Source: Betaproteobacteria bacterium RBG_16_66_20
GTDB taxonomy: Bacteria > Pseudomonadota > Gammaproteobacteria > Burkholderiales > SG8-39
Direction: 5' to 3'
DNA: 33,469 bases
NCBI GenBank assembly: GCA_001770285.1
Contig: MEQQ01000046.1
Coordinates: 1 to 33,469, forward strand
The notes beneath the pieces were generated by a model, which worked only from the letters and a program-made list of their open reading frames with translations, was not told the origin of the DNA and did no database searches. Both the position numbers and the translations under genes were made by a program. Of the stretch, positions 2,927 through 26,322 are shown piece by piece (positions within the stretch are counted from its first letter, which is position 1; each line of letters starts with the position of its first letter).

Positions 2927-3187
2927 GTGTCCGCTCGCTGGCCACTGCAGAAGGCAAAGAACGAATTCAGCCGGGTCGTTGATCGCGCCTTGAGCGAGGG
3001 TCCGCAGACCGTGACGCGCCACGGCAAGCCCGTGGTGGTCGTGTCCGCGGTCCGCGGCGCACGAGGCCGGACGGAAAACCGCAAGGCGTCAAGAGCGCTG
3101 CTCGCGCTGTTGCGCAGCTGCCCTGTGGATCTCAGCCGGATAGTCACCCGCGATCGCTCGGTGCCTCGCACCGTCGATCTCGGATGA
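2927..3187 (+). CDS. Phd/YefM-family antitoxin
   Basis: 86 residues. The N-terminal part (WPLQKAKNEFSRVVDRA... then TVTRHGKPVVVVSA) matches the Phd/YefM DNA-binding fold, which dimerises and binds the operator. The C-terminal third is Arg-rich and would wrap the toxin. The start is GTG, supported by AGGAGG five bases upstream (2916-2921). Its stop overlaps the toxin start as ATGA, so translation is coupled. Expected role: neutralise the PIN-domain toxin and repress the operon. Confidence 0.88.
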   Translation: MSARWPLQKAKNEFSRVVDRALSEGPQTVTRHGKPVVVVSAVRGARGRTENRKASRALLALLRSCPVDLSRIVTRDRSVPRTVDLG

Positions 3188-3606
3188 GCTACCTGCTCGA
3201 CACCTGCGTCGTTTCGGAATTATCGAGGCCCCGGCCGAACCCGGGTGTCGTCACTTGGATGTCGGAGGCTGATGTCGCCTCATTGCACCTGTCGGCGATC
3301 ACAGTAGGAGAGGTGCGGCGCGGCGCGCTGCGCCTTCCCGTTGGGAAGCGCAGAACATCTCTTTTGGCCTGGAGCGAAAGGCTGAGACAGAGCTTTTCCG
3401 GGCGCACCCTCCCCATCGACGAGTCCGTTGCGCAGCGGTGGGCGGACATCGCGGCGCGCGCGGAGCAGTCGGGCCGCCCCGGATCCTTCGCGGACGGATT
3501 GATTGCCGCGACCGCGCTTGACCGTGGCCTGACGCTTGTCACGCGCAACGTCACCGACTTCGAGCCCTTCGGCGTCTCGCTCCTGAACCCCTGGACCGCA
3601 ACCTGA
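3184..3606 (+). CDS. vapC: VapC/FitB-type PIN-domain ribonuclease toxin
   Basis: 140 residues, a normal VapC length. The acidic PIN residues are in place: D6 in LLDTCVVSE, E43 in VGEVRRG, D104 in FADGLIAA and a C-terminal TRNVTDF (D125). Such toxins cleave tRNA or rRNA with Mg2+. It is translationally coupled to the Phd-type antitoxin. It resembles the FitB branch (LDTCVVSELSRPRPN). All catalytic acids are present, so the toxin should be active. The gene symbol is by family only. Confidence 0.9.
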   Translation: MSYLLDTCVVSELSRPRPNPGVVTWMSEADVASLHLSAITVGEVRRGALRLPVGKRRTSLLAWSERLRQSFSGRTLPIDESVAQRWADIAARAEQSGRPGSFADGLIAATALDRGLTLVTRNVTDFEPFGVSLLNPWTAT

Positions 3607-22158: not shown

Positions 22159-23862
22159 TCAGGCCTTTCGCAGGAAATCGAAATCGCAGCCGTGCTCGGC
22201 CTGCAGCACGTGGTCCATGTAGAGTCTTGCGTAACCTCGCGCGGGCGGCAGCGCGGGTGGTTTCCAGGCAATTTTTCTGTTTGACAGTTCATTTTCGGAA
22301 ACAAGCAAATCAATCCTCCGTTGCCTGACTGAAAGCCTGATCCGGTCACCGTTGCGCGCGAGCGCGAGCGGCCCCCCGGCGGCGGCCTCGGGCGACACGT
22401 GCAGCACGATGGTGCCGTAGGCAGTGCCGCTCATCCTGGCGTCGGAGATCCGCACCATGTCCTTCAATCCGGCGCGCGCGAGCTTCGCCGGAATCGGCAG
22501 GTAGCCCGCTTCGGGCATCGCGTAGCCGGATTTCGGCCCGGCGTTCTGCAGCACCATGAAGTCCTGCGGCGTAATGTCGAGCGCAGGATCGTCGACGCGT
22601 GCGGCGAGATCGTCGAGCGAAGTGAACACGACCGCCCGGCCTTCGCGCTCGAACAGGCTCGCATCGGCGGCCGAGCGCTTGAGGATGGCGCCGTTGGGCG
22701 CGAGCGAGCCGAACAGCGCCACCAAGCCGCCCACCGGCGCGAGCGGCTCGGACAGCGGGCGCACGACCGCACGGTCCACCCAGCCGCCGGCTTCGTGCGC
22801 CAGGCGCTCGCCGAGCGTCCCGCCGGTCACGGTCATGCACTCAAGATGCAGCAGCGGCTTGAGTTCCCTCAGCACCGCGCCCACGCCGCCCGCGGCGTAG
22901 AGGTCCGACATGTAGAACTGGCCGGTCGGCTTCAGGTCCACCAGCACCGGCGTCGAGTCGGACAGTTGGTTCAGGCGGTTCAGATCGACCTTTACCCCGA
23001 CGCGTCCGGCGATTGCCGTAAGGTGAACGATGGCATTGGTCGAGCCGCCAATGGCCAGCAATACGCGCAACGCGTTTTCCACCGACTGTCGCGTGATGAT
23101 TTCCGACGGTCGGATGGGTTTCAGCGTCAGCTCCGTTGCGCGGCGGCCGCTCGCTTCGGCGGCGCGCAGCCGGTCGGCGTGCACCGCGGGAATCGCCGCG
23201 CTGCCCGGCAGCGCCATGCCGAGCGCTTCGGCAATCGCGGCCATGCTGGAGGCCGTGCCCATGACTGCACAGGTTCCCGCGGTCGTTGCCAGATTGCCCT
23301 CGATCGATTCGATTTCGGAAGCGGTTACTTTTCCCGCCCGATGCTGGGCCCAGAACCGCCGGCAATCGGTGCAGGCCCCGAGACGTTCGCCGCGGTACGA
23401 GGTCGGCATCATCGGCCCGGCGAGCAGCTGCACCGCGGGAATGTCGGCGCTCGCCGCACCCATCAATTGCGCCGGCACCGTCTTGTCGCAGCCGCCGACC
23501 AGCACTACCGCGTCCATCGGCTGCGCGCGCACCATCTCCTCGACGTCCATCGCCATCAGGTTGCGGAACATCATCGAGGTCGGGCTGAGGAACACCTCGC
23601 CAAGGGAGGTCGTCGGGAATTCGACCGGCAGCCCGCCCGCGGCCAGCACGCCGCGCTTCACGGCTTCGATCAGTTCCGGGAAATGGCGGTGGCAGTTGTT
23701 GAAGCCGCTGCGCGAATCGGCGATGCCGACCACGGGGCGCGCCAGCATCTCGCCCGAATAGCCCATGCTCTTGGCGAACGAGCGCCTCAGATACAAGGAA
23801 AACGCCGGATCGCCGTAATTGGTCAGCCCCTTCGCGAGGCCATGCTTCGGATCGTTCGCCAT
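22159..23862 (-). CDS. IlvD/Edd family dehydratase, sugar-acid type
   Basis: 567 residues, normal for the family. Iron-sulfur ligands are C57 in NNCHRHF, C125 in GGCDKTVPA and C198 in AGTCAVMGTAS, and the catalytic serine lies in DARMSGTAYGT. Dihydroxy-acid dehydratase and pentonate/hexonate dehydratases share these. The wording around C57 (NNCHRHFPEL) and VRISDARMSGTAYG is nearer to L-arabinonate/D-xylonate-type dehydratases than to classical IlvD. It stands alone; no sugar-acid gene flanks it. Start ATG 23862 has no Shine-Dalgarno sequence but TAGAAT six bases upstream. A rare-codon patch lies near the 3' end (22258-22335). Confidence 0.9.
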   Translation of the reverse strand: MANDPKHGLAKGLTNYGDPAFSLYLRRSFAKSMGYSGEMLARPVVGIADSRSGFNNCHRHFPELIEAVKRGVLAAGGLPVEFPTTSLGEVFLSPTSMMFRNLMAMDVEEMVRAQPMDAVVLVGGCDKTVPAQLMGAASADIPAVQLLAGPMMPTSYRGERLGACTDCRRFWAQHRAGKVTASEIESIEGNLATTAGTCAVMGTASSMAAIAEALGMALPGSAAIPAVHADRLRAAEASGRRATELTLKPIRPSEIITRQSVENALRVLLAIGGSTNAIVHLTAIAGRVGVKVDLNRLNQLSDSTPVLVDLKPTGQFYMSDLYAAGGVGAVLRELKPLLHLECMTVTGGTLGERLAHEAGGWVDRAVVRPLSEPLAPVGGLVALFGSLAPNGAILKRSAADASLFEREGRAVVFTSLDDLAARVDDPALDITPQDFMVLQNAGPKSGYAMPEAGYLPIPAKLARAGLKDMVRISDARMSGTAYGTIVLHVSPEAAAGGPLALARNGDRIRLSVRQRRIDLLVSENELSNRKIAWKPPALPPARGYARLYMDHVLQAEHGCDFDFLRKA

Positions 23863-23868
23863 GCGGAA

Positions 23869-23874
23869 ATTCTA
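23869..23874 (-). promoter_or_regulatory. -10 element TAGAAT, leaderless promoter of IlvD/Edd gene
   Basis: The minus strand reads TAGAAT, six bases (TTCCGC), then ATG, the same arrangement as at 906 and 9481. No ribosome-binding sequence is present. Confidence 0.5.
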
Positions 23875-23934
23875 ACCGAGGGCGGGAACAGGATGCGGTA
23901 AGCCTTTGATTCCGAGAGGTGGGCAGCCTCCCAC

Positions 23935-23985
23935 TACAATTTCTGGCGGGGTTGTGGTTGCTTTCCCACTCCTCATTACGTAATG
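23935..23985 (+). promoter_or_regulatory. Promoter and palindrome upstream of HTH-methyltransferase gene
   Basis: A -10-like TACAAT lies at 23935-23940, just after a GTGGG...CCCAC inverted repeat. Downstream, CATTACGTAATG (23974-23985) is a perfect 12-bp palindrome, about 30 bases past the predicted start site and 23 bases before the ATG. It is a candidate operator. Confidence 0.45.
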
Positions 23986-24008
23986 TCGGCGAAGGAAGGA
24001 GCGGCTGC

Positions 24009-25442
24009 ATGGAAGCGCTTGCGGAGCAGGGCGTCAGCCTGCTGGACAGCATCTCGGATTTCTGCCGCCACAGCGGCATCGCGGAGTCCACGTTCGGCCG
24101 CCGCGCGGTCAACGACGGCAAGTTCGTCGCCCGGCTGCGCGACGGCGCGCGCATCACCCCTGAAACGCTCGATCGCGTCACCATGTTCCTCGAACGCCAC
24201 GGCGCGAGCGCGCCCGCCGCACCGCCCGAGTTGCGCCGGTTGATCCGCGTCGCCGAACGCGCCACAACCTACGGCGCCGCGCGCGTACCGGCCGAGGGCG
24301 CGCCCCAGCGCGATGGCGCTCCTTCCCGCAATTTCCGCTTCTTCGACAACCGGCAGAAATACCTGCTGTTCGTCAACACCTGCGGCGAGAAGGAAATGGT
24401 GGCGCGGCGCGTCGGCATGGAACTCGCGCACATCCACCCGCGCCCGCCCGCGGTCCGCGTGTTCGACGCCGGCATGGGCGACGGCACCGTGCTGACGCGC
24501 GTGATGCGCGAGATGCACCGGCGCTTCCCCACCCGGCCGTTCTACTTCGTCGGCAAGGAAATCAGCCTCGAGGACGTGCGCCTGTCGCTCGACAAGATAC
24601 CCGACCGCTTCCACGAGCACCCGGCCACCGTGATGGTCGTCACCAACATGTATTACACCGAAGCGCCGTGGCTGACGCCCCGGGCACTCACCGCGGCGAC
24701 CTCGCTGGTGTGGCATGAAGTCGCCCTCACCGGCACCACCGCGCACGAGTTCGGCGAGCAGATCGCGGCACTGGAGCCGTTCCTGGCCAAAAACTGGCAG
24801 GCGCGCCACAGCGCGAAGACCGGCAACCCGGTCTACGAGCGGCCGGTCGCGCTGGTGATCTACCGCGACGATTTCCGTTTCATGCTCGATGAAGCGATCC
24901 CGCGCCAGGGCAAGGTGCGCGCGGGCTACGACCTGGTGATCGCCTCGCAACCCTACCGCGCCCGCGTCGCGGTGGAATTCAAGGCCTCCAAGGTCATCGG
25001 GCCGCTGGCGCGCGCGCTCGGGCCGGGCGGCAGGCTGCTCGGCATCCATTCCTGCGGCCGCGATCCGGGCCTGGAGATCGTGCGCAAGATCTGGCCGGAC
25101 GAAAATCCATTCACCGCCGGCCGGCACGACCTGCTGCGCGCGGTGCGCACCGATCTCGGCAAGGAAGCGAAGCATTTCAATTTCAACGCCTACTCGGATG
25201 CGCGCGCGGTATTCCGCTACGACATGCATACGCTGCCGACCGAAATCGCGGACAGCATCGGCACCTCGACGTTATTCGCGGCCTGGAACGCGGCGGTATA
25301 CGTGGCGCAGATCGACGACGAGCGCCTGGGGCGCGTCGTGGGCGAGCGCAAATACCTCGACGCCACGCGCGACGTGCTGCAGGCGCACGGCGGCCTGTGG
25401 TTCCTGGATGAATCCTATGTCGTCTCTCGAAAACGCAGCTGA
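24009..25442 (+). CDS. SAM-dependent methyltransferase with N-terminal HTH-like domain
   Basis: 477 residues from the ATG at 24009, with AAGGAG seven bases upstream; a longer frame from 23919 lacks support. Residues about 14-65 (SISDFCRHSGIAESTFGRRAVNDGKF ... ITPETLDRVTMFLE) look like a helix-turn-helix of the lambda-repressor type. A class I methyltransferase domain follows, with motif I VFDAGMGDGT (151-160) and an acidic strand 2 (FVGKEIS). Long charged helices and a beta-rich C-terminus complete it. The substrate is unknown. It overlaps the MetF-like gene by 26 bases, implying coupled expression. Confidence 0.82.
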   Translation: MEALAEQGVSLLDSISDFCRHSGIAESTFGRRAVNDGKFVARLRDGARITPETLDRVTMFLERHGASAPAAPPELRRLIRVAERATTYGAARVPAEGAPQRDGAPSRNFRFFDNRQKYLLFVNTCGEKEMVARRVGMELAHIHPRPPAVRVFDAGMGDGTVLTRVMREMHRRFPTRPFYFVGKEISLEDVRLSLDKIPDRFHEHPATVMVVTNMYYTEAPWLTPRALTAATSLVWHEVALTGTTAHEFGEQIAALEPFLAKNWQARHSAKTGNPVYERPVALVIYRDDFRFMLDEAIPRQGKVRAGYDLVIASQPYRARVAVEFKASKVIGPLARALGPGGRLLGIHSCGRDPGLEIVRKIWPDENPFTAGRHDLLRAVRTDLGKEAKHFNFNAYSDARAVFRYDMHTLPTEIADSIGTSTLFAAWNAAVYVAQIDDERLGRVVGERKYLDATRDVLQAHGGLWFLDESYVVSRKRS

Positions 25443-26322
25443 GCGTCTGGCGGCCGAGCGCCCGGCGAGCGTCGCCGCGGAACTCGTTTCCGGCGGCTCG
25501 CTCGAGATGGGCGCGCACCGGCCGCAGGACGCGCGCGATATCGCCGCGCTGCTGCCGGCGGGCACCCCGGTCTATGTCAACCACCTGCCGCGCCACCGGC
25601 TGCTCGATACCGTCCCGACCCTGGTTGCGGTGCGCGAGGCGGGCCTCGAACCGGTGCCGCACATTGCCGCGCGCCGCGTCAGGGACCGTGCCGAACTCCA
25701 GACCTTCCTCGCGCGCGCGGTCGGCGACGCGGGCGTACGCAAGGCATTGATCATCGGCGGCGACGAGCCCGACGCGGCCGGCCCTTACGCCGACGGCGCG
25801 GCGCTGATCCGGGAAGGCCTGCTCGCAAGCGCCGGGCTGCGCGAGATCGGCCTGCCAGGCTATCCGGAAGGCCATCCGCGCATTCCGCGCGCGGTCCTCG
25901 AGCGCGCCATTGCCGAGAAAATGTCGCTCGCCGCGGGACAGGGCCTGGGCACCTACATCGTCACCCAATTCTCTTTCTCCCCGGCACGCGTGATCGAGTA
26001 CTGCGCCGGTCTCGCCCGCGCCGCGCCCAGCGTCCCGGTCTACGTCGGCCTCGCCGGACCGACCGATCCGCTCGCGCTGCTGCGCTACGCGCAGCGCTGC
26101 GGCGTGAGCGCCTCCCTGCGAGCGCTGCGCGCGCAGGGCCTGGACGCAGTGCGCCTCGTCACCCACACCGACCCTGCCGAACAGCTGGCGACACTGGCCC
26201 GCTACTGCGCCTCGCACGCGGACTGCAACGTAGTCGGGATACACCTGTTCACGTTCGGCGGCGTGACCGCGGCCGCCGCCTGGATGAACCGCTACATCGC
26301 CTCGCGAGGAAGTTCGGCCTGA
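25417..26322 (+). CDS. Methylenetetrahydrofolate reductase-like flavoprotein
   Basis: 301 residues, close to bacterial MetF. The ATG at 25417 lies inside the end of the methyltransferase gene. The FAD-binding GGDEP (114-118) aligns with the RGD motif of MetF, and PHIAARR (81-87) with PHL...; the N-terminal catalytic FEFFPP motif is degenerate here (VAAELVSGG, E22). It should bind FAD and a folate, but may catalyse a different one-carbon step from MetF. A housekeeping metF would be expected elsewhere in the genome. Pairing with a methyltransferase suggests they share a methyl group carrier. Confidence 0.8.
   Translation: MSSLENAAERLAAERPASVAAELVSGGSLEMGAHRPQDARDIAALLPAGTPVYVNHLPRHRLLDTVPTLVAVREAGLEPVPHIAARRVRDRAELQTFLARAVGDAGVRKALIIGGDEPDAAGPYADGAALIREGLLASAGLREIGLPGYPEGHPRIPRAVLERAIAEKMSLAAGQGLGTYIVTQFSFSPARVIEYCAGLARAAPSVPVYVGLAGPTDPLALLRYAQRCGVSASLRALRAQGLDAVRLVTHTDPAEQLATLARYCASHADCNVVGIHLFTFGGVTAAAAWMNRYIASRGSSA

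Follow-up and report, generated by a model that had tools for sequence, protein, structure and literature searches.

We identified a two-gene locus in which a gene for a predicted HTH-methyltransferase fusion (gene 1) precedes and overlaps a gene for a divergent, MetF-like MTHFR (gene 2). We consider it somewhat probable that gene 1 encodes a SAM-binding methyltransferase that controls its own expression and heads a methyl-cycle operon with the MetF-like gene. The evidence was obtained computationally and comprises the fusion, the fold of its product, the coupling of the two genes, an operator candidate that is both conserved and locally unique, the methyl-cycle context, and the presence of LigM in the genome.

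Location and distribution of the gene pair

The window, by which we mean the whole stretch of 33,469 nucleotides that was analyzed, is one contig (C46) of a 2.94 Mb genome that is in 155 contigs and 87.7% complete. Gene 1 (24009 to 25442, forward strand, 477 aa) was defined from its ORF, its homologues and an AlphaFold model, and gene 2 (25417 to 26322, forward strand, 301 aa) from its ORF, its Pfam and PDB matches and its relatives. Gene 1 starts with the ATG at 24009, with AGGAGC six bases upstream, and ends with the stop codon at 25440-25442. The ATG of gene 2 is at 25417, giving the 26-base overlap reported in a preliminary description of this DNA. A divergent gene for an IlvD/Edd-family dehydratase (22159 to 23862) lies upstream of the pair, and a convergent gene for an MgtC/DUF4010 protein lies downstream. 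Elsewhere in the window, we noted by eye genes resembling those for a Phd/YefM antitoxin and, after it, a PIN/VapC toxin (2927 to 3606). There is also a series of genes between 28775 and 33174 for a sulfide/dihydroorotate dehydrogenase-like FAD/NAD subunit, a glutamate-synthase-like flavoprotein, and a pyruvate:ferredoxin-oxidoreductase-like protein.

The loci of relatives used below are the best 80 of at least 560 related stretches, and every count out of 80 rests on these; there is some overlap between the 80 named loci and the further relatives (L032 and L003 are the same match). Among these best 80, the nearest relatives that have names are MAGs whose titles read Betaproteobacteria or Burkholderiales, and many of the others have Alphaproteobacteria titles. 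Homologues of gene 1 are common to many alpha- and betaproteobacteria, many of them soil or water bacteria. A match was present in 37 of 101 close relatives, and none was found in a search of plasmids. Two environmental MAG contigs with gene 1 (L060 and L091) are titled Klebsiella pneumoniae and Bordetella parapertussis; these titles seem misassigned.

Gene 1 is predicted to join an HTH to a class I methyltransferase

Sequence searches with gene 1 alone recovered little: nothing in Pfam or NCBIfam matched at E ≤ 0.1, nor did any PDB sequence at E ≤ 1. We worked with a set of 76 homologues made up of 61 loci, 14 further regions and the window. (Of the best 80 of at least 560 loci, 62 passed an 88% identity filter and L035 was omitted; L178 and L181 were omitted from the 16 further regions, L170-L185.) Compared with Pfam at E ≤ 1, these homologues gave weak matches, such as Methyltransf_12 in four members (best E 0.12). 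A profile of full-length gene 1 gave a single match in the PDB (E 0.97), which we took as chance.

AlphaFold with the 76 homologues gave a model of gene 1 with a mean pLDDT of 89.7 and a pTM of 0.76. This model superseded one made with 18 sequences, which had a mean pLDDT of 54.2 and, in a structure search that we disregarded, Z scores under 5 throughout. In the later model, the HTH region (residues 9-65; 24033 to 24203, forward strand) has predicted helices at residues 11-22, 26-34, 39-44 and 51-63. It is followed by a linker that is predicted to be disordered (residues 79-106; 24243 to 24326, forward strand; pLDDT under 50) and by the methyltransferase domain (residues 111-477; 24339 to 25439, forward strand), which was assigned from the model, fold matches and conservation. 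Profile support for the HTH is weak, with HTH_26 matching 3 of 19 segments (best E 0.075 in a scan at E ≤ 5). The top matches of an HTH profile in the PDB were polyubiquitin repeats, which we also took as chance.

Residues 108-474 of the model matched histamine N-methyltransferase (2aou_B) with a Z score of 18.4, an rmsd of 4.0 over 264 aligned residues, and 11% identity, and many other class I methyltransferases matched as well. The domain has the features of class I, namely a Rossmann-like methyltransferase fold, a glycine-rich motif I and an acidic motif II. Residues D153, G155, G157, D158 and E184 were unchanged in all 76 sequences, and many polar and aromatic residues outside the SAM motifs were also invariant. 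In the model, gene 1 connects a four-helix predicted HTH through a disordered linker to a class I methyltransferase. The preliminary description had proposed such a fusion and had allowed that the HTH segment might instead fold as part of the methyltransferase. Because the HTH, linker and methyltransferase are separate in the confident two-domain model, the N-terminal helices are not folded into the methyltransferase, and the proposed fusion is borne out.

A conserved operator candidate upstream of gene 1

There is an array of GTGGG and CCCAC half-sites between positions 23919 and 23969, with half-sites 10-12 bp apart. Box 1 (23919 to 23934; GTGGG-N6-CCCAC) is a candidate binding site recognized from its uniqueness in the genome and from the counts in upstream regions given below. 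Box 2 (23952 to 23969; TTGTGGTTGCTTTCCCAC, or GTGGT-N6-CCCAC) overlaps a putative -35 element at 23958-23963. The putative promoter (TTGCTT, 17 bases, TAATGT; 23958 to 23986, forward strand) was assigned by eye from aligned promoters. A scan of 23850-24050 with the sigma-70 consensus gave no promoter at threshold, which counts against this -35/-10 reading.

We compared 81 upstream regions, those of the best 80 of at least 560 loci and that of the window, with shuffled sequences obtained by first-order resampling (five rounds for the boxes and one for the palindrome described below). GTGGG-N6-CCCAC was present exactly in 20 of the 81 regions and with at most one mismatch in 47 (shuffle means 0.0 and 0.8). 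The inverse arrangement, CCCAC-N7-GTGGG, was present exactly in 19 and with at most one mismatch in 32 (shuffle means 0.0 and 1.0). Each of the remaining spacers from 0 to 15 gave at most 3 exact matches and at most 6 within one mismatch in the same 81 regions. At least one correctly spaced pair within one mismatch was found in 62 regions and neither pair in 19, some of which have TGCCCA boxes and TTGTGGTTGAC by eye; because the upstream regions share ancestry, these counts are not independent tests.

The half-sites are also regularly placed. In the 53 of 81 regions that have the anchor TTGTGGTTG within one mismatch, TGGG peaked at positions -44, -32 and -9 from the anchor, and CCCA at -34, -22 and +13. 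The window has TGGG at -32, CCCA at -22, TGGT at +3 and CCCA at +13, so that box 2 falls on the lattice at +3/+13. The lattice spacing is approximately one helical turn, and this pattern in the DNA would fit several copies of a protein bound along one face.

These patterns are rare elsewhere. There was a single exact GTGGG-N6-CCCAC in the window's own genome, compared to 6 matches per strand for the reversed control. TGTGGTTGNNNTCCCAC was found exactly once in that genome, at box 2, with 8 more places at 2 mismatches. Among 20 genomes that hold gene 1, CCCA-N8-CCCA-N9-TGGG gave 13 matches in 12 genomes, compared to 2 for the reversed control, and 8 genomes had no exact match. By their coordinates, 12 of the 13 matches were within approximately 150 bases upstream of gene 1. 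Because the pattern was derived from such promoters, its presence there is expected, and the result is its near absence elsewhere.

A different site had been proposed in the preliminary description, the palindrome CATTACGTAATG, 23 bases before the start of gene 1. It is indeed present at 23974-23985, once in the window, where it overlaps the putative -10 element. Over the 81 upstream regions its best mismatches were at the level of the shuffled sequences, and it occurred with 0 mismatches in the window only. By these comparisons the palindrome is a chance occurrence. The idea of autoregulation is thus strengthened by GTGGG/CCCAC boxes that are conserved and nearly unique to gene 1, whereas the site first suggested for it is not retained.

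Gene 2 and the one-carbon genes of the genome

Gene 2 is a divergent member of its family. It was narrowly above the cut-off for Pfam MTHFR (PF02219; 27.2 bits, cut-off 24, residues 71-232) and far below that for the canonical MetF equivalog TIGR00676 (31.9 bits, cut-off 293.7). The best PDB sequence match was 7xg9 (E 4e-43), which we take to be S6MTHFR, the SYK-6 enzyme, and the next was 1v93 (E 2e-07). The N-terminal motif of canonical MetF is SFEFFPP. Gene 2 has SLE at this place, aligned to an SLE in 7xg9, and its motif had been described as degenerate. All 54 MetF-like relatives have E30, D116 and Q184, presumably the catalytic Glu, Asp and Gln by comparison to E. coli MetF, as does the other MetF encoded in this genome, so the description of the motif as degenerate is wrong.

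That other MetF, on contig C65, had a stronger match to Pfam MTHFR (129.7 bits). Gene 2 is therefore not the sole MetF of the genome, as the preliminary description had allowed it might be. The C65 MetF was itself below the NCBIfam equivalog cut-offs and has a corrinoid-like neighbor, and it may therefore not be the biosynthetic enzyme. In this region (L001, 771-2895), the MetF is a 479-aa frame with an additional cysteine-containing N-terminal part, and the gene after it resembles, by eye, one for a corrinoid protein; the region has the look of another cluster for methyl transfer.

The genome also encodes LigM (NF047885, 751.4 bits, cut-off 580; PDB 5x1i, E 1.5e-195), on a contig other than that of gene 1, as well as MetE-like genes and gcvT followed by a gcvP-like frame. 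Judging from these frames, glycine cleavage genes seem to be present. In SYK-6, LigM makes 5-methyl-THF, which S6MTHFR oxidizes to 5,10-methylene-THF, and glycine cleavage is absent (PMC12585457).

Methyl-cycle genes are found next to gene 1 in relatives

We counted neighboring genes by tblastn, defining the downstream gene as one on the same strand within 500 bp. These counts replaced those of a home-made gene caller, which missed genes (it placed the MetF-like gene at +1 in 49 loci). PcaGH, PcaF, MetK and AhcY were named by eye from cluster sequences. In the best 80 of at least 560 loci, the gene directly after gene 1 was MetF-like in 66, confirming that the pair is conserved, and metK, for SAM synthetase, in 5; neither was next in 9, including L034, L089 and L110, which have less than 700 bp left. 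In the 16 further regions, metK was next in 8, the MetF-like gene in 3, and neither in 5 (L170-L174). Within 6 kb downstream, ahcY, for SAH hydrolase, was found in 4 of the best 80 loci and in 8 of the 16 further regions. Gene 1, metK, ahcY and the MetF-like gene form one row in L081, L100 and L175.

Other neighbors in these best 80 of at least 560 loci included pcaGH-like genes upstream in 11, MetE-like genes downstream in 18 and upstream in 5, and LigM in 3, downstream on the opposite strand. In seven loci (L078, L085, L087, L096, L097, L101 and L102), there are two to four tandem MetE-like genes (~370-450 aa) after gene 1 and the MetF-like gene, and these arrays sit behind pcaF/pcaGH-like genes. 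The tandem genes may be methyl-transfer enzymes tied to aromatic catabolism.

Copies of gene 1 without the HTH

The two modules of gene 1 can occur apart. A gene 1-type match was found in 29 of 398 genomes sampled across the phylum, which we divided by our own grouping of the matches. The HTH and methyltransferase are together in 13, counting the window's own genome. In 4 (G136, G246, G300 and G325) the methyltransferase part has no attached HTH, and in 12 there is only the HTH part, several of these interrupted by stop codons. G340 has an HTH-less copy in addition to a full one. The five regions above with neither MetF-like gene nor metK next include all four HTH-less copies outside G340.

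The five HTH-less copies match the full-length proteins at most conserved positions of the methyltransferase; among the positions that differ are Y316, where each of the five has F or W, and C125, I346, G340 (here a residue) and Q116. That they retain the methyltransferase signature points to an enzyme rather than to a sensor alone, and suggests that methyl transfer itself matters, beyond sensing. One HTH-less copy, L175, heads a metK-ahcY-MetF-like row.

Proposed mechanism and alternatives

In the mechanism that we favor, gene 1 and gene 2 would form one operon under autogenous control. Gene 1 would be a class I SAM-dependent methyltransferase that acts on a small molecule and to which the HTH is tethered by a flexible linker. 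The helically phased GTGGG/CCCAC array over the promoter would be occupied by several copies of the protein, repressing transcription, and SAM, SAH or a methyl acceptor in the methyltransferase pocket would alter this repression. The MetF-like enzyme would interconvert 5-methyl-THF and 5,10-methylene-THF, here most likely oxidizing the 5-methyl-THF made by LigM from methoxylated aromatics. DNA binding, repression, the effector, catalysis by gene 1 and the direction of the MetF-like reaction are the parts that we infer. Several results weigh against this reading. Neither spaced pair is present in 19 of the 81 upstream regions, the HTH is weakly recognized by profiles, and the sigma-70 scan gave no promoter. 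LigM is on another contig here and adjoins gene 1 in no more than 3 of the best 80 of at least 560 loci, and glycine cleavage genes, missing in SYK-6, are seemingly present here. The 5 of 16 further regions without a MetF-like gene or metK next also count against it. More broadly, and tentatively, gene 1 could stand for a class of moonlighting methyltransferases that is widespread but has no name. In this class, the catalytic site would sense the status of the methyl cycle and the appended HTH would autogenously control MetF-like and metK-ahcY operons, tying methyl groups derived from aromatics to SAM homeostasis.

Three alternatives bear on different parts of this mechanism. It is somewhat unlikely, though the likeliest of the three, that gene 2 has the usual biosynthetic role of an MTHFR, reducing methylene-THF so that methionine can be made, in an operon supplying methionine and SAM. 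Its catalytic residues are intact, elsewhere the MetF-like gene accompanies metK-ahcY or adjoins MetE-like genes, and the doubt about a biosynthetic role for the C65 MetF leaves room for one here; the score far below the TIGR00676 cut-off, the solved enzyme nearest to gene 2 (7xg9, which we take to be that of SYK-6) and the presence of LigM argue against this alternative. We think it unlikely that gene 1 is purely a sensor, with a non-catalytic methyltransferase domain that reads SAM or SAH in the manner of a SahR-type methyl-cycle repressor. A local regulator of this kind would fit the metK/ahcY operons and an operator found almost only beside gene 1, but would not account for HTH-less copies in which the SAM site is kept along with many further conserved residues, one of these copies (L175) still at the head of metK-ahcY-MetF-like, nor for the many invariant polar and aromatic residues beyond the SAM motifs.

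The remaining alternative, which seems improbable, is that the GTGGG/CCCAC boxes are an RNA element or the site of another regulator, and that gene 1 is a plain enzyme with N-terminal helices that do not bind DNA. GTGGG-N6-CCCAC could form a short hairpin, the profile support for the HTH is weak, and binding by gene 1 is a prediction. Against this, the window and seven loci, searched with Rfam for a riboswitch, had no hit that reached a gathering score. The boxes overlap the putative -35 element or precede it, and they are spaced by roughly one helical turn. Conservation of the boxes is highest at gene 1 itself, and the tested pattern was found almost nowhere else.

Comparison to known systems

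The closest precedent is ArsR-M of Brevundimonas sp. M20, which is a regulator-methyltransferase fusion encoded by the first gene of a metF operon and is reported to bind its own promoter (PMC10190100). Gene 1 is likewise a predicted regulator-methyltransferase fusion heading a metF-type operon. It differs in its operator candidate and in having no match to an ArsR-type Pfam domain, whereas ArsR-M has an ArsR-type domain and a different palindrome (PMC10190100). There was no ArsR-type model among the Pfam families matched by the 76 members (E ≤ 1) or the 19 HTH segments (E ≤ 5). By analogy, our best reading is that gene 1 works like the ArsR-methyltransferase regulators without the ArsR-type sequence. 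SahR and SamR regulate methyl-cycle genes such as ahcY, metH, metF and metK, a kind of gene that gene 1 would also control; they use 20- and 24-bp palindromes and have wider regulons, whereas the operator pattern of gene 1 is found almost only at gene 1 (PMC4239095).

Gene 2 resembles S6MTHFR of Sphingobium lignivorans SYK-6 in being an MTHFR homologue in a LigM genome, with 7xg9 as its best PDB match, and differs in being led by gene 1 and in the apparent presence of glycine cleavage genes, which SYK-6 lacks (PMC12585457). Histamine N-methyltransferase (2aou) shares the fold of residues 108-474 of gene 1, to which gene 1 adds an HTH. Methyltransferases of M.SsoII-type restriction-modification systems have an N-terminal HTH and repress their own promoter. 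M.SsoII is a DNA methyltransferase, whereas gene 1 has a fold of the small-molecule type and no restriction gene was seen adjoining it.

The preliminary description had considered the system as possibly undescribed. The type of MetF-like enzyme is already known, being related to the solved 7xg9, and so is a regulator-methyltransferase fusion at the head of a metF operon (ArsR-M; PMC10190100); gene 1 has no ArsR-type match and a different operator candidate. The HTH-methyltransferase family of gene 1 and its operator were not found in the open-licence literature searched. The operator candidate is defined, the model is confident and the operon is conserved, so that effector and substrate can be tested directly. 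Knowing them would reveal how incoming methyl groups are balanced in bacteria that demethylate aromatics from plants.

A related HTH fused to CysD

In two loci, L188 (2560-3672, by NCBIfam) and L189 (2398-3567, from the translation, by eye), CysD, a sulfur enzyme, carries a fused N-terminal HTH that resembles the one in gene 1. A cysN-like gene lies behind each of these fusions, which perhaps represent another enzyme that controls its own operon.
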